NCBI GenBank assembly: GCA_944325315.1
Contig: CALVAA010000011.1
Coordinates: 1-55,593 of the forward strand
Length of the DNA stretch: 55,593 nt
DNA from: Candidatus Gastranaerophilales bacterium
Lineage (GTDB): Bacteria > Cyanobacteriota > Vampirovibrionia > Gastranaerophilales > Gastranaerophilaceae
Reading direction: 5' to 3'
Under the pieces are notes generated by a model. That model made no database searches, was not told where the DNA came from, and was given only the letters and a program-made list of their open reading frames with translations. Shown one piece after another: positions 16,865 to 53,836 of the stretch; positions within the stretch are counted from its first letter, which is position 1; each line of letters begins with the position of its first letter. Position numbers and translations under genes: made by a program.

Positions 16865-17530
16865 CTATAGCTGATTTTCAACTCTGTTATAATTTATCGG
16901 GGCAGGTTTGATAATATCATATGCTCTTTTGATATCTTCCAATGTCCTAAAATGTATTGTATCAGGTTTTACTTCCATTTGTCTTATTTCTCTAATGGAA
17001 AGGTTTTCACTAAAATCCACTTCAAGCGCAGCTTTTAGACCTGTTGACTCAACAAGTGCTTTAGTGTTTGAATTTTGTACTATTAAATTAAGCCATGGAT
17101 TGATTTTTTTGATGGTTTCAGCTGCCGTCAGGGCTATTTCTTCGGAATCGTTAACAGCTTCCTTTAGTGCTCCGTGGCATCTTACCTGTTCTACTTGTAA
17201 ATCAAAAGTTTTGCTATAAGCTATAATTGCACCAATTTGGTACGTGATTATTGCTTCAAGTTCTTCTTTTTGAAATTCCATTTTTCTTTTACCAAAGCCT
17301 TGAATGTCAGGATAGCCAATGTGTGCACCTATTGCAATATTGCGCTCTTTTGCAAACAAAAGCGCTTTTCTGATATTTAAAGGGTCTCCGGAATGAAATC
17401 CTGCAGAAATATTGATTGAACTGGCATATTTTGCAATTTCAAATTCTGCTTCATTTTGGTATATTCCCCAACTTTGTGCTATATCACAATTAAAATCAAA
17501 CAATTTTTTTCTCCATTTTGTAGCTGTCAT
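16865..17530 (-). CDS. pxpA: LamB/YcsF family protein (5-oxoprolinase subunit A-like)
   Basis: PxpA works with PxpB and PxpC to open 5-oxoproline to glutamate using ATP. Family features visible are FDFNCDIAQSWG at the N-terminus, SINISAGFHSGDP, IGAHIGYPD and VRCHGALKEAV. At 221 residues it is shorter than the usual 250 or so. No pxpB or pxpC lies nearby, so the partner subunits are elsewhere or absent. A TATAAT lies exactly six bases before the ATG, suggesting a leaderless start. A TTG at 17503 with a GGAG upstream is an alternative that gives a start closer to the family consensus. Confidence 0.82.
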   Translation of the reverse strand: MTATKWRKKLFDFNCDIAQSWGIYQNEAEFEIAKYASSINISAGFHSGDPLNIRKALLFAKERNIAIGAHIGYPDIQGFGKRKMEFQKEELEAIITYQIGAIIAYSKTFDLQVEQVRCHGALKEAVNDSEEIALTAAETIKKINPWLNLIVQNSNTKALVESTGLKAALEVDFSENLSIREIRQMEVKPDTIHFRTLEDIKRAYDIIKPAPINYNRVENQL

Positions 17531-17536
17531 AAGCCT

Positions 17537-17542
17537 ATTATA
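17537..17542 (-). promoter_or_regulatory. -10 box six bases from the pxpA-like ATG
   Basis: On the minus strand TATAAT occupies 17542-17537 and the ATG is at 17530, leaving six bases between. Transcription would begin at or next to the A of the ATG. No convincing -35 is seen at 16-18 bases. Confidence 0.45.
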
Positions 17543-19713: not shown

Positions 19714-21051
19714 TTATACAATATATTCACTATAAAATCTGAACGCTCTGAATGTCTTCGAAAAGTAATCTTGTTTTAGTCCCGCTTTTATTTTCAATGA
19801 ATTTAAAAATTGTTTTTTATCGTTTATATCATCCCAAACACTGGGAAGATAGACAGCCTGGTAAGCGCCGTCTTTTATAATTATGCCGTCTTTAAAAGGA
19901 ACAATTTTACAAAGGAGTTCTTCTTCACTTTCAAACTCTATTTCAACAGGCGAAGACAGTATTGAAACTTTGATTTCAATTTTATCGATTTCTTCTTTTT
20001 CTAAAGGATTAAATCTCGGGTCTTTATATGCGCTGTTGTATGCATTTTTGACCAAATTATCTATTAATGGTTCATATGCAATTATTGAACCGATACAGCC
20101 TCTTAAAAAACCGTTTATTTCAAGAGTCACAAAACAAGCGCCTAATTCATCAAACACACAATCATAATCTTCAGGGAAATAACTTCCTTTTTGCTCAATA
20201 CTTTTTTTGCAGATTTTTAAAATAAAATCACTAAAATATTTTTTTATAAATTCATTTTTGCTTCCTTCAAAAAGCCTCCAGGCGCCATAGCCTACAACTC
20301 TTGTTTTATCATTATTTGCTTTTGATGAATTTAATAAACCGATTCTAATTAGTGAGAAATTATTGTTTAGTGTAAATTCTTTTAAAGCAAGTATTCCTTC
20401 TAATCCGCATGCTCTTTTATTGTCAAATGTTAAAACATCATCCGTTTCTATCATTTGAGCAGTTCTTTCATCTGTTTTTTCGGCTTCGGTGTGATTTAAA
20501 AAATGACTTAAATCAGATGAAATTATAAATGAATTTTTTTCGTCTTTCCAATATTTTGATATTATTTTACTGATTTCTTTTGAAGAATTGGCACAAGTTA
20601 GTATCGAAACAATTTTAAAATCCTTATTTTTATAAAGATATTTTAATATTGGCAGCTGAACTTCAATTGAATGCTCCATATTAAAAGCATCGTTATTAAA
20701 TTCCAGATTGAATTCATATTTAATTTCATTTACAATTTTTAGATTCTGATATATTTCGCCAAAAGGCGTTAAAAAGCTATCATAATCACAAAGCCCCATA
20801 TTAAAAAGAGGAAAGTGGTGCGAAGGGGCAATAATAAAAACGTTTTCAGTATTATTATCAAGATTTTTCATAGCTTGATAAGCAAGTTTTCCTGAATAAA
20901 TATATCCGGCATGAGGTATAATTAGTGCTCTTGTTTTATTTATAAATTTTTCATTTAAATCTTTTTCAAAACCCGAAAAAAGATTTTCAAGTTCATTTTT
21001 ACTGTTGGGATAAAAAACATCTCCCACTGATTGTTGCTTAATTTTTTTCAT
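19714..21051 (-). CDS. AmmeMemoRadiSam fusion: Memo domain plus AMMECR1 domain
   Basis: Residues about 1-265 are a Memo-like domain (IIPHAGYIYSG, APSHHFP, FNMEHSIEVQLP, SSDLSHFL), related to extradiol dioxygenases but of unsettled activity. Residues about 270-445 are an AMMECR1 domain (CFVTLEINGFLRGCIGSI, AYNSAYKDPRFNPL). In bacteria these two are the B and A components of the AmmeMemoRadiSam set, whose biochemical role is not established. Here both are one 445-residue chain, divergent from the radical SAM component 22 bases away. A TATAAT box lies seven bases from the ATG and no Shine-Dalgarno is visible. Confidence 0.92.
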   Translation of the reverse strand: MKKIKQQSVGDVFYPNSKNELENLFSGFEKDLNEKFINKTRALIIPHAGYIYSGKLAYQAMKNLDNNTENVFIIAPSHHFPLFNMGLCDYDSFLTPFGEIYQNLKIVNEIKYEFNLEFNNDAFNMEHSIEVQLPILKYLYKNKDFKIVSILTCANSSKEISKIISKYWKDEKNSFIISSDLSHFLNHTEAEKTDERTAQMIETDDVLTFDNKRACGLEGILALKEFTLNNNFSLIRIGLLNSSKANNDKTRVVGYGAWRLFEGSKNEFIKKYFSDFILKICKKSIEQKGSYFPEDYDCVFDELGACFVTLEINGFLRGCIGSIIAYEPLIDNLVKNAYNSAYKDPRFNPLEKEEIDKIEIKVSILSSPVEIEFESEEELLCKIVPFKDGIIIKDGAYQAVYLPSVWDDINDKKQFLNSLKIKAGLKQDYFSKTFRAFRFYSEYIV

Positions 21052-21058
21052 ATAATTA

Positions 21059-21066
21059 ATTATAAT
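21059..21066. promoter_or_regulatory. Overlapping back-to-back -10 boxes of the AmmeMemoRadiSam genes
   Basis: ATTATAAT (21059-21066) contains TATAAT on the plus strand (21061-21066) and TATAAT on the minus strand (21064-21059). Each is seven bases from its gene's ATG. TTGATA on the minus strand (21085-21080) gives a -35 at 15 bases for the Memo-AMMECR1 gene. The plus-strand -35 is weak. Only one direction could be bound by polymerase at a time. Confidence 0.5.
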
Positions 21067-21073
21067 ATATTTT

Positions 21074-22078
21074 ATGAAATATCAAAGCAAAATCGAAAAT
21101 AACACACTAAGATGCGAAATTTGTCCCAGAATGTGCCATCTAAAAGAAGGACAAGTCGGCTATTGCAATACAAGAAAAAACATAAATTCAAACATTGAAC
21201 TTATAGTGTTTGCTAAATGTGCTTCTATTGCGCTTGATCCTATTGAAAAAAAACCGCTTTATCATTTTTTGCCAGCTTCAAACATACTGTCTTTTGGCAC
21301 TTTAGGGTGCAATATGGGCTGTTTATTTTGCCAGAATTGGAATATTACAAAAGTTAAACCAAATGAATACAAATATCCGCTTCAAAAAATCACCCCTTTT
21401 GAAATTGTTAATATTGCCCTTCAAAATAACTATAAAAGCATTGCTTTTACATACAATGACCCTGTTGCGTTTTTTGAATATGCACTTGAAACTGCTAAAT
21501 TAGCTAAAAAATCCGGAATTAAAACAGTTGCAGTTTCGGCAGGATATATCAATAAAGAACCTCTAAAAGAATTTCTTACATATGTCGATGCTATCAATAT
21601 TGATCTTAAGGCCTTTAGCGAAGAGTTTTACAAAAAATATTGCAATGCTTCACTAGATACCATTTTAGATAATTTAAAATACATCAAACACAATACAAAC
21701 ACCCATCTTGAAATTACAACACTTTTGATTGAAGGTCTAAACGATTCAGACGATATATTAAAAAAAGAATGCAGTTGGATATTAAACAACTTAGGTGAAA
21801 GCACGATTTTACACTTTAGCGCATTTCATCCCGACTACAAGCTTTTAAATTACCCGAAAACCTCTCTCAAAACTCTTTTGAAAGCATATAATATTGCAAA
21901 ATCCGAAGGATTAAAGTATGTTTACAGCGGAAACATTTTAAATAAAGAAACCTCAACTACATACTGTCCAAAATGTAATAAAGCGGTAATTGAAAGATAC
22001 GGATTTAAAGTTTTGAATTTTAATATTATTAATTCAAACTGCAAATACTGCGGCGCAAAAATAGATGGTGTTTTTTAA
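21074..22078 (+). CDS. amrS: AmmeMemoRadiSam system radical SAM enzyme
   Basis: The 334-residue protein has an N-terminal cysteine motif (LRCEICPRMCHLKEGQVGYC), then the radical SAM motif C-x3-C-x2-C in LGCNMGCLFCQNW. Typical family segments AFTYNDPVAFFEYALE and FHPDYKL follow. The C-terminus carries a CPKC and CKYC zinc-ribbon-like pair. It belongs to the PflA-like AmmeMemoRadiSam radical SAM family, with unknown substrate. It pairs with the divergent Memo-AMMECR1 fusion. The ATG follows a TATAAT by seven bases. Confidence 0.92.
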   Translation: MKYQSKIENNTLRCEICPRMCHLKEGQVGYCNTRKNINSNIELIVFAKCASIALDPIEKKPLYHFLPASNILSFGTLGCNMGCLFCQNWNITKVKPNEYKYPLQKITPFEIVNIALQNNYKSIAFTYNDPVAFFEYALETAKLAKKSGIKTVAVSAGYINKEPLKEFLTYVDAINIDLKAFSEEFYKKYCNASLDTILDNLKYIKHNTNTHLEITTLLIEGLNDSDDILKKECSWILNNLGESTILHFSAFHPDYKLLNYPKTSLKTLLKAYNIAKSEGLKYVYSGNILNKETSTTYCPKCNKAVIERYGFKVLNFNIINSNCKYCGAKIDGVF

Positions 22079-22209
22079 AAATAAGCAGAAAAAATAAAAT
22101 CAGTTAATTTAACATGACTTCAACGCTTTTTTACAAATTCTAAATGCTTGTTTTAATTTATTTTAAAAAACTTTGTATAGTATCATATACCAACATTATA
22201 ATAAAAATC

Positions 22210-22298
22210 CGGAGAACGAGGGATTCGAACCCTCGAGGCAGATTACTCCACCTAACACCTTAGCAGGGTGCCGCCTTCAGCCACTCGGCCAGTTCTCC
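22210..22298 (-). tRNA. tRNA-Ser (GCT)
   Basis: On the minus strand the acceptor strands GGAGAAC and GTTCTCC pair perfectly, followed by discriminator G. The anticodon loop contains GCT within CCCTGCTAAGG, and a long variable arm is present as in class II serine tRNAs. The T loop reads TTCGAAT. CCA is not encoded. It occupies most of the gap between the radical SAM gene and the glycosyltransferase-like gene. Nothing else is visible in 22079-22209. Confidence 0.95.
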
Positions 22299-22375
22299 AA
22301 GATTAAATGAATCTTTTTAAATTTTAACACAAGTACAAAAAAATTATCAAGAAGAAAAAACAGAAAGAAAATACG

Positions 22376-22403
22376 TTGAAAATTGCTTTAATTTTTGTAT
22401 AAT
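22376..22403 (+). promoter_or_regulatory. Promoter placing transcription start at the ATG
   Basis: TTGAAA (22376-22381), 16 bases, then a perfect TATAAT (22398-22403). The expected transcription start is about 7 bases downstream, which is the A of the ATG at 22410. No Shine-Dalgarno is present. Confidence 0.7.
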
Positions 22404-22409
22404 TGTCCT

Positions 22410-23450
22410 ATGAATAATGACAATGGAATCAAATATTCAATAATAACTTCTTTTAAAAAATGGTACAATTTGAAAGATTGGTTTTTATACTGCCTTAAAA
22501 CTATTGCACTTAAAACAAAGTTGAATTTGTACAGAATAATTAATCCTAAAAAACAGAATAAATACAAACTGTTTTTAAAAGCAATTAATCCTCCCGAGCA
22601 ATTTGAATTTGTTGATTCAAAAAAATATCCAATTGTTGGCCATAAACAACTTGAGCTTAGTTTAATCAGAGGGTTTAACGATTTAAAAATACCGTTTAAA
22701 GTTAACGAATTAAGTGATAATTTAATTATTCTATGGGCAGATAAAATTGATCTTGGTGTTATAAAAAGATTAAAAAAAGAAAAGAAAATAAAAAAGGCTT
22801 TAACTGTGCCTACCGCCTGCCAGTATGACTACAATTATCTGATGTGGGCTTTTCCGACATATACTCAAATAGATTATTCACTGGTAGGTTCAAATCAAGT
22901 TAAAGAAAAGAATAAAAAAATTATAGATGAAAAATTCCACGATAAAATAAAGCCCTGGCCTTCAGGAGTTAAAATTGAAGAAATTGATTTAAATAAAGAA
23001 CCAAAAAACGCTTGTATCTGCTCTTTTAAAAAAGTTCCCGTAAATTTTGATATAGTTAATTTTATAAAACAGCAAAATATTACCTGTTATGTTGTTGAGT
23101 ATGGAAATTATGATTTTAATTATTGGCAAAATTTATTAAAACAAGTTGACTTTGTAATTTTTTATCAGGATTATATTGAAACACAAGGCATTGCAATGGC
23201 GGAAGCCTGGGCAAATAATAGAATTACTTTAATTAAAAATGGAACTTCCCCTTATTTGACAAAACAAACAGGCCTGTCTTTCAATAATGTTGATGAATTA
23301 AAAAAACAAATTTTAGAATATAAAGATAATCCTAAAGAATTTCTTTCTCAATTTTCGCCTTATCAATGGACAAAAGAAAATATGTCTGATAAAGTAAGTG
23401 TTTTAAACTTGATTCAAATTATTGAAAATGGAAAAGAAAAAGAATATTAA
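22410..23450 (+). CDS. Glycosyltransferase-like protein
   Basis: The 346-residue protein looks like a GT-B-fold glycosyltransferase. The C-terminal half has VDFVIFYQDYIETQGIAMAEAW, analogous to the E-x7-E nucleotide-sugar region of GT4 enzymes, and GLSFNNVDELKKQI near the end. The N-terminal half is divergent, with no signal peptide or membrane helix. Acceptor and donor are unknown; a role in surface glycan synthesis is likely by family. An in-frame TTG at 22395 overlaps the -10 box and is not the start. Confidence 0.7.
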   Translation: MNNDNGIKYSIITSFKKWYNLKDWFLYCLKTIALKTKLNLYRIINPKKQNKYKLFLKAINPPEQFEFVDSKKYPIVGHKQLELSLIRGFNDLKIPFKVNELSDNLIILWADKIDLGVIKRLKKEKKIKKALTVPTACQYDYNYLMWAFPTYTQIDYSLVGSNQVKEKNKKIIDEKFHDKIKPWPSGVKIEEIDLNKEPKNACICSFKKVPVNFDIVNFIKQQNITCYVVEYGNYDFNYWQNLLKQVDFVIFYQDYIETQGIAMAEAWANNRITLIKNGTSPYLTKQTGLSFNNVDELKKQILEYKDNPKEFLSQFSPYQWTKENMSDKVSVLNLIQIIENGKEKEY

Positions 23451-32703: not shown

Positions 32704-32709
32704 TAAAAT
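32704..32709 (+). promoter_or_regulatory. -10 box six bases from the prfB ATG
   Basis: TAAAAT (32704-32709) lies exactly six bases upstream of the ATG at 32716. No Shine-Dalgarno separates them, suggesting leaderless expression. A clear -35 is not visible. Confidence 0.4.
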
Positions 32710-32715
32710 TGTTTT

Positions 32716-33829
32716 ATGGACAATAACTTAATAATTGATGAATTAAAACAAAAAATAAATACCCTTAGCCTTCGATTAAGTTCAATAGAAAGGTGTCTTT
32801 GACCCTGAAGGTTTAAAAATAAAATTAGATAAAATAAATGAGAATTTAAAAGACGAAAATATATGGTCTAATCCTTGTGAATCAAAAAAGCTTTTAGTTG
32901 AGCAAAAAGAAATTAAAAATCGCCTTAATGATTTATCCTGTTGGAAAGCAGCTATTGAAGATGCAAAGGTTGCCGTTGAACTTAAAGATTATAATTTGGT
33001 TGAAGAATCAATTGAAAGCCTTAATTTGCTTGAAACCAAACTAAACAAATTTGATTTAGAGAATCTTTTATCGTCTCCATACGATAAAAATGATGCAATT
33101 CTGACCGTAAATTCAGGTGCAGGCGGAACAGACGCTCAAGACTGGGCTGATATGCTTTTAAGGATGTATTTAAGATGGGCGCAAATTAAAGGCTACGAAA
33201 GCGAGCTTTTGGATAAATCCGAAGGAGATGAGGCCGGAATTAAATCAGCAACAATTAAAATATCAGGCCTTTATGCTTATGGATATATAAAAGCAGAAAA
33301 AGGGGTGCACAGATTAGTAAGAATCTCTCCTTTTAATGCCAACGGTAAAAGACAAACAAGTTTTGCTTCGGTTGAAGTTTCTCCCGTTCTTGAAAATTTT
33401 GAAAAAGAAATTGAAATTCGCCCTCAGGATATTGAAGTTGAAACAATGCGCTCAGGAGGTGCCGGAGGGCAAAATGTTAATAAGGTTGAAACGGCAGTGA
33501 GAATAAAACATCTTCCTACAGGAATCGTGGTAAAATGCCAACAACAACGCTCACAGCTTCAAAATAAAGAAACTGCAATGCAAATGCTTGCTTCTAAGCT
33601 TCTTATGATAAAACAAGCCCAATACGAAGAAAAACTCGGACAATTAAAGGGCGAAGCAATGGATGCCAATTTTGGCTCTCAAATAAGAAGTTATGTTTTT
33701 CATCCGTATAAAATGGTTAAAGACCACAGGACAAATTTTGAAACATCTGACACCGATAGTGTGATGAATGGCGAAATAAACGGCTTTATTGAAAGCTACT
33801 TAAGAAAAGAAAGTATAAAAGAACACTAA
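32716..33829 (+). CDS. prfB: Peptide chain release factor 2, with programmed +1 frameshift
   Basis: RF2 terminates at UGA and UAA. The first 28 codons from the ATG at 32716 end at an in-frame TGA (32800-32802). A +1 shift at CTT TGA continues in the frame starting GAC (32801), reading [13 protein letters not shown] and on to the stop at 33829. The GGQ motif is in [25 protein letters not shown] context and the C-terminal [13 protein letters not shown] are typical. The frameshift is the classical autoregulatory device of prfB: scarcity of RF2 promotes shifting. It is followed by hisS after 16 bases. Confidence 0.95.
32791..32803 (+). promoter_or_regulatory. prfB programmed frameshift site
   Basis: AGGTGTCTTTGAC carries an internal Shine-Dalgarno-like AGGTG, the slippery CTT codon and the in-frame TGA followed by C, matching the known RF2 recoding signal apart from a weaker Shine-Dalgarno (AGGTG rather than AGGGGG). 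Confidence 0.93.
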
Positions 33830-47371: not shown

Positions 47372-47396
47372 ATAATACCTTAAACTGTGTTAATAT
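47372..47396. promoter_or_regulatory. Compact divergent -10 boxes
   Basis: Minus-strand TATTAT (47377-47372) is six bases from the ATG at 47365. Plus-strand TAATAT (47391-47396) is six bases from the ATG at 47403. A plus-strand TATAAT at 47371-47376 is an alternative giving a short leader without Shine-Dalgarno. Confidence 0.4.
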
Positions 47397-47402
47397 TTTA
47401 GT

Positions 47403-47681
47403 ATGAAAAAGATTTTGTTTATATCTTTTATACTAATGCTATGCCACTTGCAAGCTTTTGCAGTCAACTTTGGCTCATACAGGGCAGAAACCGACTACGG
47501 TTTAATAGACGGCTTTAAATGGAATTTCTTTAATCGAAAAGAAGGAGACCCTTTGGTGCAGATAAAATCTGAAACAGAGGAAGAAAAAATAAGAATCGAA
47601 AAAGAAAAAGACAAGCCAAAACCGGTTCAAGACGACGTTCAGCTTTATAGATTTATGCTTGATAATACCGTCGCTTTTTAA
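47403..47681 (+). CDS. Small secreted protein of unknown function
   Basis: A 92-residue protein with a signal peptide of about 20 residues (ends LQAFA). A mature part follows that becomes strongly charged (SETEEEKIRIEKEKDKPKP) before a short hydrophobic end. No cysteine after the signal peptide, so not a lipoprotein. I do not recognise it. It ends four bases before a convergent TPR gene. Confidence 0.6.
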   Translation: MKKILFISFILMLCHLQAFAVNFGSYRAETDYGLIDGFKWNFFNRKEGDPLVQIKSETEEEKIRIEKEKDKPKPVQDDVQLYRFMLDNTVAF

Positions 47682-49571: not shown

Positions 49572-49577
49572 ATTATA
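49572..49577 (-). promoter_or_regulatory. -10 box six bases from the TPR gene ATG
   Basis: Minus-strand TATAAT (49577-49572), six bases, ATG at 49565. A weak TTTACT is the best -35 candidate at 17 bases. Confidence 0.5.
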
Positions 49578-49609: not shown

Positions 49610-49870
49610 TTAGAATAAGCTTTTTAATACTTCGATTAAACGTAATACTTCTTCTTGAGGTGGGTTTTTAAGCGAAGTTTTATATTTTTTCTTTTTAATA
49701 AAATTTTCAATACAGTTTTTGTTATTGCAAATGTATGCACTTCTTCCGATTTCATTGCTTTTTGGATTAATTATTAAAGTATTATCTTTCAACTTTGTAA
49801 TTCTTAAAAGAAAGTTTCTGTCTTTTAATTGTCTGCAACTTTGGCAGATTCTTTTTATTTCCTTTTGCAT
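49610..49870 (-). CDS. YlxR family RNA-binding protein (RnpM-like)
   Basis: An 86-residue YlxR (DUF448) protein: KRICQSCRQLKDRNFLLRI at the start, the family motif GRSAYIC, a Cys-containing KNCIENFIKKKKYKTSLK and a basic surface. YlxR proteins bind RNA and, in Bacillus, modulate RNase P. They are normally encoded between nusA and infB; neither is here. TAAAAT lies exactly six bases before the ATG. Confidence 0.88.
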   Translation of the reverse strand: MQKEIKRICQSCRQLKDRNFLLRITKLKDNTLIINPKSNEIGRSAYICNNKNCIENFIKKKKYKTSLKNPPQEEVLRLIEVLKSLF

Positions 49871-49876
49871 AAAAAT

Positions 49877-49882
49877 ATTTTA
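49877..49882 (-). promoter_or_regulatory. -10 box six bases from the ylxR-type ATG
   Basis: Minus-strand TAAAAT (49882-49877), six bases, ATG at 49870. There is no Shine-Dalgarno. Confidence 0.4.
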
Positions 49883-52944: not shown

Positions 52945-52972
52945 TTGTAGTTTATTGAACTTTTGATATAAT
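52945..52972 (+). promoter_or_regulatory. Promoter placing transcription start at the ATG
   Basis: TTGTAG (52945-52950), 16 bases, TATAAT (52967-52972), then six bases to the ATG at 52979. This gives a predicted leaderless mRNA. Confidence 0.6.
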
Positions 52973-52978
52973 GATATC

Positions 52979-53836
52979 ATGAAAAAGAAACTTATAATTT
53001 CATTATTTCTTATTTTAATGATGATAACAACGCTATCATCATATTCTGACGATTTTGAAACTGCAACAATGTATTATAACGAAGCAGTTGATTTATATAA
53101 ACAAGACGATGTTGAAAAATCTATCGAATTTTTCAAAAAAGCCATAGAAATTAAACCGGACTTTTATGAAGCTCACTACAATCTTTCTCAGATTCTGATT
53201 TCTATAAACAGAAATGATGAAGCTATCAGTTCTCTTGAAGCAATGGCCAAAATTCAGCCAAATAATACCGAAAATATATACAATCTTGGAAGAATTCAAT
53301 ATAAAAGAGGTTATCTTGCAAAAGCACACGAGTATCTTTCCATGATTCAAGAGGGTGACAGCCAATATGAATCGGCAAAGATTTTACTTAATAAAATTGA
53401 AAAAAGACAAGAAGAACTTAATTTAGAAAACAAAATAAAAGATAGAGACAATATTGTTGATATTCAGGGAAAAGCAAAAGGCGTTGTTCTTTCTGAAATC
53501 AAAACTCCGTCAGGAGTAGCTTTAGACAGCAGAGGCAATATATATATTGCAAGTTTTTTGGAAAATTTGATTTATAAAATTTCAATATACGGTCAAAAAA
53601 CAATTTTTTCAAAATCTGCCTTGATTAAAGGTCCGATTGGTCTTGTTATAGATAAAAACGACAATATTTATGTTGCAAACTATACTACCGGAAATATAGT
53701 TAAAATTACCCCAAATAATCAAACAAATATTTTTGCAGATATCAAAAAACCGTACTGCATGACATACGACGAAGCCAACAATCGCATATATGTCAGCGAG
53801 CAAGAAACAAATAAGCTTATAAAGTTTGATTTGTAG
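52979..53836 (+). CDS. Secreted TPR protein with short beta-propeller-like C-terminus
   Basis: The 285-residue protein has a signal peptide, about three TPR units (residues 27-140, e.g. YNEAVDLYKQDDVEKSIEFF) and a short helix. From residue 170 about three NHL/SMP-30-like repeats follow (GVALDSRGNIYIASF, GLVIDKNDNIYVANY, CMTYDEANNRIYVSE). A complete propeller needs six or more blades, so this is a partial propeller or a truncated gene. The stop is followed 85 bases later by repeat copy B. Confidence 0.8.
   Translation: MKKKLIISLFLILMMITTLSSYSDDFETATMYYNEAVDLYKQDDVEKSIEFFKKAIEIKPDFYEAHYNLSQILISINRNDEAISSLEAMAKIQPNNTENIYNLGRIQYKRGYLAKAHEYLSMIQEGDSQYESAKILLNKIEKRQEELNLENKIKDRDNIVDIQGKAKGVVLSEIKTPSGVALDSRGNIYIASFLENLIYKISIYGQKTIFSKSALIKGPIGLVIDKNDNIYVANYTTGNIVKITPNNQTNIFADIKKPYCMTYDEANNRIYVSEQETNKLIKFDL

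Follow-up and report, generated by a model that had tools for sequence, protein, structure and literature searches.

The window analysed here is a whole stretch of 55,593 nucleotides (positions 1-55,593 of contig CALVAA010000011.1, assembly GCA_944325315.1) from a Candidatus Gastranaerophilales bacterium of the Vampirovibrionia, and it contains ten start codons that are preceded at a short distance by a hexamer resembling a promoter -10 element (Table 1). Throughout, d denotes the number of nucleotides between the end of the -10 hexamer and the start codon. An earlier note on this DNA had listed the ten promoter/start pairs with their spacings, all of which match the sequence letter for letter: eight have d=6, and spacing seven is found at 21051 on the minus strand and at 21074 on the plus strand. 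The same note held that no Shine-Dalgarno (SD) site precedes the spacing-six starts, and indeed none of the eight carries an SD motif. The gene at 22410, whose product has no Pfam or NCBIfam match, is a convincing leaderless case, as are the starts at 52979, 49565 and 32716, the last being that of prfB, which encodes release factor 2. Not all eight spacing-six examples stand up individually; the rnpM (ylxR) ATG at 49870 sits 34 nt behind a same-strand ORF, and a further TATAAT stands 17 nt before the ATG of the pxpA-like gene at 17530. The pxpA-like protein itself (16865-17530, minus strand) is short at 221 aa, with a Pfam LamB_YcsF match over positions 2-162 of 239; it is equally short in a few related genera, and the open frames are about 260-300 aa in most relatives. 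A tRNA-Ser(gct) gene (22209-22299, minus strand) lies between the AmmeMemoSam radical SAM gene and the 22410 gene, both of which are on the other strand.

Table 1. Genes with predicted leaderless starts and putative promoter elements in the window.
Feature	Coordinates	Strand	Remark
AmmeMemoSam B+A fusion gene	19714..21051	-	predicted leaderless start
AmmeMemoSam radical SAM gene	21074..22078	+	predicted leaderless start
Palindrome ATTATAAT	21059..21066	both	overlaps the -10 elements of both AmmeMemo genes, d=7 each
-35-like TTGAAA of 22410 gene	22376..22381	+	16 bp before the -10
-10 TATAAT of 22410 gene	22398..22403	+	d=6 to ATG
Putative leaderless gene, 346 aa	22410..23450	+	ATG picked without any motif
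prfB (release factor 2)	32716..33829	+	predicted leaderless start
-10 TAAAAT of prfB	32704..32709	+	d=6 to ATG 32716
-10 TATAAT of TPR/NHL-repeat protein gene	52967..52972	+	d=6 to ATG 52979
-10 TATAAT of TPR protein gene	49572..49577	-	d=6 to ATG 49565
-10 TATAAT of pxpA-like gene	17537..17542	-	d=6 to ATG 17530
TAAAAT before rnpM/ylxR	49877..49882	-	d=6 to ATG 49870; weak case
TATTAT	47372..47377	-	d=6 to ATG 47365
TAATAT	47391..47396	+	d=6 to ATG 47403; weak, 2 mismatches from consensus

The assembly comprises 1.81 Mb in 34 contigs at about 32% G+C and is 96.9% complete; a search of it for a 16S rRNA gene found none. Relatives retrieved with one of its proteins are likewise labelled Candidatus Gastranaerophilales, of the class Vampirovibrionia or Melainabacteria. 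We sampled the window together with forty 20-kb stretches, in all 855,593 bases or 47% of the genome, and scanned this sample in two ways. The motif-first scan, which used no gene calls, collected every TATAAT-d-ATG with d from 0 to 40 in which the ATG opens at least 60 codons. The gene-first scan started from 706 genes delivered by a simple gene finder whose start choice is blind to upstream motifs, accepted -10-like hexamers with at most one mismatch, and took 100 dinucleotide-preserving shuffles of the upstream regions as controls. The looser pattern TANNNT was tried as a -10 pattern and dropped as too unspecific in an AT-rich genome (1.2x). A distance-resolved count against shuffles was the check that the earlier note had proposed and, run genome-wide, it places d=6 above all other distances and above the shuffles. 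ORF-opening pairs number 37 at d=6 and 16 at d=7, with a mean of 7.3 at the other distances (Poisson p=5e-15 and 0.0035, respectively). Among called genes, the hexamer stands at d=6 in 61 of 706 versus 11.9 +/- 3.0 in the shuffles (maximum 20 in 100), and exact TATAAT in 25 versus 1.3; d=7 shows no enrichment on called genes (15 versus 12.3) and is seen in the ATG scan only.

The excess at d=6 over the shuffles amounts to about 49 genes, or 7% of genes, and it is found mainly at the head of operons, with 41 of 360 operon-first genes at this spacing versus about 8 at other spacings, and 8 of 230 operon-inner genes. The earlier description of the arrangement as widespread thus stands insofar as the signal is real and well above chance, but it concerns a minority: about 7% of all genes, or about 10% when only operon-first genes are considered, both figures being lower bounds because weaker -10 hexamers go uncounted. 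As about one fifth of the ORF-opening d=6 pairs is expected by chance, single genes are not callable with certainty. Homologues among the twenty strongest d=6 cases include dnaX, trmFO (GidA family), rnhA, maf and a nadD-type cytidylyltransferase, and further mlaE, a phosphoglucomutase/phosphomannomutase, a histidine kinase and an ArsR regulator. The suggestion that housekeeping genes such as prfB belong to the leaderless set is borne out by this list and by prfB itself, a conserved member of it.

The sequences around the d=6 hexamer have the character of a promoter placed at the start codon. The SD motif, scored as any of AAGG, AGGA, GGAG or GAGG, is present in 0 of the 90 d=6 genes of this genome and ten other genera of the family, in 10-23% of genes with the same hexamer at d=9-11, where a similar space is occupied, and in 49-54% over all genes (49% in the genome itself, versus 4% in a control interval). 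A T occupies position -1 in 82% of the d=6 set versus 42% of other non-SD genes (p=2.5e-8), and in the other genera in 79% versus 39% (p=1e-4); initiators usually favour a pyrimidine followed by a purine at -1/+1. Furthermore, the extended -10 TG is found in 27-31% of the d=6 set versus 4-8%, and TTGACA-like -35 elements peak at spacings of 16 and 17, with 14 and 13 of 90 (4-5 expected for each, about 9 jointly). Taken together, the absence of SD, the T at -1, the TG extension and the -35 spacing are four independent properties that argue for a promoter placed at the start codon, which is ATG in 60 of the 61 d=6 genes of this genome. A free expectation-maximisation (EM) search recovered both AAGGAG and TATAAT, and in the family pool it assigned the d=6 position a mass of 9% over all genes and 12% over first genes; the same search drifted to poly-A on the set from this genome alone, from which no estimate was taken. 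SD sites are more frequent in operon-inner genes (60%) than in first genes (43%), which agrees with the earlier statement that genes inside operons and many first genes possess one. Since the d=6 genes are without SD while about half of all genes have it, two modes of initiation coexist in this genome, as had been suggested.

Conservation of the spacing is clearest for prfB. Across 30 genomes from 17 genera, all within the family, a -10-like hexamer stands at exactly d=6 in 20 of the 30 orthologues (18 to 20 under the different start-picking rules) and at d=7 or 8 in 4 more, and an SD site is present in 3 of the remaining 6. Matches at other distances are mostly 0-2, the exceptions being d=3 (5), d=7 (3) and d=11 (8). 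Ungapped identity of the flank from -60 to -21 is 0.31-0.33, and so the spacing has been kept while the remainder has been randomised. The gene carries the programmed +1 frameshift site CTT-TGA-C of canonical RF2 type at 32797-32803, the CTTTGA site being found in 30 of the 30 family prfB genes examined; an SD-like AGG lies just upstream of the frameshift site, and the prfB start itself is without SD.

The most compact arrangement in the window is the divergent AmmeMemo pair, in which the ATGs are 22 bp apart (intergenic region 21052-21073) and a single palindrome overlaps both -10 elements. In seven relatives (L034-L038, L041 and L042) the ATGs of the aligned starts are 21 bp apart, and ATTATAAT yields d=6 for one gene and d=7 for its partner; in L036 and L041 the 21 bp is counted from the MKYQ start, an upstream in-frame ATG existing in both. 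The predicted transcription starts of the pair would lie 22-23 bp apart. Over twelve relatives the B+A gene has d=6 in 10 (8 to 10 depending on the start rule); L031 and L033 have gained a longer leader with the same promoter, lengthened on one side only. Nine divergent pairs in the sampled genome are separated by less than 60 bp, and in 7 of them one start or both is predicted to be leaderless.

Other genes of the window show that the mode turns over, since pxpA, rnpM and the TPR gene appear leaderless here and in a small number of further genomes, and their orthologues elsewhere are often leadered or SD-led. The TPR gene (49565) also has d=6 in its orthologues in L189, L190, L198 and L199, rnpM has it in only 2 of 19 usable orthologues, and the leader is longer in most pxpA orthologues. 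On the scale of lineages, we divided the whole-genome count of TATAAT-N6-ATG by the mean of the counts at the same-frame spacings d=9 and d=12; a reversed-pattern control for these counts was dropped as it was not spacing-matched. This ratio is 1.76 in the genome itself and 2.44 (p=6e-87) across the family's ten other genera. Beyond the family it is 1.46 for the remaining families of the order and 1.51 for the remaining orders of the class; among Cyanobacteriia, the AT-rich family sampled gives 1.05 and the others give 1.12, a slight excess (p=0.009). The signal therefore spans the family and fades across order and class, and the sampled Cyanobacteriia essentially lack it. The ORF-filtered pooled count for other families of the order is 4 versus 1.9, from a small pool, and in the class outside the order (families f5-f7) TATAAT-N7-ATG outnumbers TATAAT-N6-ATG by 649 to 550; the preferred spacing may be broader, from d=6 to 8, in the class outside the family.

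The model that we consider very probable, judged from the DNA, is that this bacterium has a leaderless mode of expression serving at least about 7% of its genes through a -10 element ending 6, and sometimes 7, nt before the ATG, so that for roughly every fourteenth gene transcription appears to begin at the start codon itself. In this model a promoter of the housekeeping sigma factor would have its -10 hexamer exactly 6 nt (sometimes 7) ahead of the ATG, the first base transcribed by RNA polymerase would be the A of that ATG, and the predicted mRNA would be without a 5′ leader. The ribosome would then begin on the 5′-terminal AUG, presumably as a 70S particle by analogy with leaderless mRNAs elsewhere. 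The remaining first genes, and most operon-inner genes, would use leaders, mostly with SD sites.

Transcription might instead begin 1-5 nt before the AUG, giving very short leaders from which initiation proceeds without SD, a reading that we regard as unlikely but worth serious attention. RNA polymerase varies its start by one or two bases, variants with d=7 and d=8 do exist (the d=7 excess of the motif-first scan, and the four prfB genes with d=7 or 8), and our placement of the transcription start uses the average -10-to-start distance, by which a start placed 1-3 nt ahead of the ATG could not be told apart; a distribution peaking sharply at exactly 6, together with the T(-1)A(+1) pattern, nevertheless indicates the A of the ATG as +1. 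It is also conceivable, and in our judgement quite improbable, that other codons are the real starts or that the genes lie in longer operon transcripts with accessory internal promoters. The position of 49870 close behind a same-strand ORF and the few operon-inner d=6 genes would suit this; however, the starts were chosen without motifs, the N-termini align with those of relatives, and most members are operon-first. We give still less credence to a translational role of the AT-rich element, such as S1 binding or the provision of a low-structure region, in place of a promoter role. Although S1 sites can explain AT-rich bias upstream of non-SD starts (Nakagawa et al., PMC5397173), the motif here matches the -10 consensus, carries the TG extension, has a -35 element 16-17 bp away and prefers operon-first genes, and it coincides with the promoter of leadered orthologues, where TATAAT lies further upstream (pxpA, L031 and L033). 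Chance, finally, is barely credible and as a general explanation is refuted by the spacing-resolved counts. TATAAT-like hexamers are common at 32% G+C, and a certain number will accidentally stand 6 nt ahead of an ATG; this background is about 7 ORF-opening pairs in 855 kb for any given distance, and about 12 of the 706 genes after shuffling. The starts at 47403 and perhaps at 49870 and 17530 may belong to it. However, d=6 stands five-fold over the mean of the other distances and higher than in each of the 100 shuffles, no such signal is seen in Cyanobacteriia with the same G+C, and the spacing is kept while the flanks are randomised.

Returning to leaderless expression from the start codon, the mode is known from other bacteria and is new for this lineage as far as searched. 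A partial literature search found no report linking it to Melainabacteria or Vampirovibrio, and the single paper it gave for Gastranaerophilales together with Shine-Dalgarno deals with a different topic, in line with the earlier remark that no description was known for the lineage. Zheng et al. 2011 (PMC3160421) list the phyla with TA-led genes, Cyanobacteria not being one of them, and state that many Cyanobacteria use neither mode. Nakagawa et al. 2017 (PMC5397173) consider that AT-rich bias in Cyanobacteria may signal leaderless genes or S1 sites, a reading that differs from that of Zheng, and the literature on Cyanobacteria is therefore not unanimous. The StartLink paper (PMC9581028) gives, citing GeneMarkS-2, leaderless transcription in 21.6% of bacterial species, and reports Cyanobacteria as placed in a group with an unknown weak pattern or mechanism. 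We put at about even the broader proposition that Vampirovibrionia have leaderless expression as an established trait, either acquired in this class or lost by its sister Cyanobacteriia, and that it includes minimal pairs, conserved in several genomes, in which one 8-bp palindromic -10 would drive two divergent leaderless genes with start codons 21-22 bp apart.

If our model is correct, leaderless translation would extend to a class adjoining the cyanobacteria that is large, for the most part uncultured, native to the gut and other environments, and not listed in the surveys consulted, and gene finders trained on SD may misplace such starts in many metagenome-assembled genomes. Cyanobacteriia and Vampirovibrionia would form a natural pair for the gain or loss of leaderless initiation, and the pxpA, TPR and AmmeMemo genes would illustrate how a gene switches between having and lacking a leader while its promoter stays of one kind.

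The arrangement proposed here resembles the -10-adjacent ORFs of Deinococcus-Thermus, tested experimentally in Deinococcus at 6-7 bp spacing (Zhong et al. 2025, PMC12340547), and the TA-led genes of Actinobacteria and other groups (PMC3160421), in which the -10 also lies 6-7 nt before the start and SD is missing. It shares with both systems the coexistence with SD-led genes and with low-G+C genomes the described TG extension. It differs from them in its share of genes, about 7% rather than 20-40%, in the nearly full TATAAT consensus, and in belonging to a lineage that the published list of leaderless phyla does not include. It is likewise similar to the leaderless class of GeneMarkS-2, as reported in PMC9581028, in having a promoter-like pattern before part of the starts plus SD sites. 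Finally, the AmmeMemo pair has, from its predicted start sites, the form of a symmetric -10 bidirectional promoter of the kind described by Warman and Grainger (PMC12825309, PMC10268837), whose starts are 10, 18 or 23 bp apart. As in those promoters, one palindromic -10 would serve both strands, and the predicted separation of the starts matches their common 23-bp class; unlike them, both AmmeMemo transcripts would begin at start codons, and the whole intergenic region is 21-22 bp.
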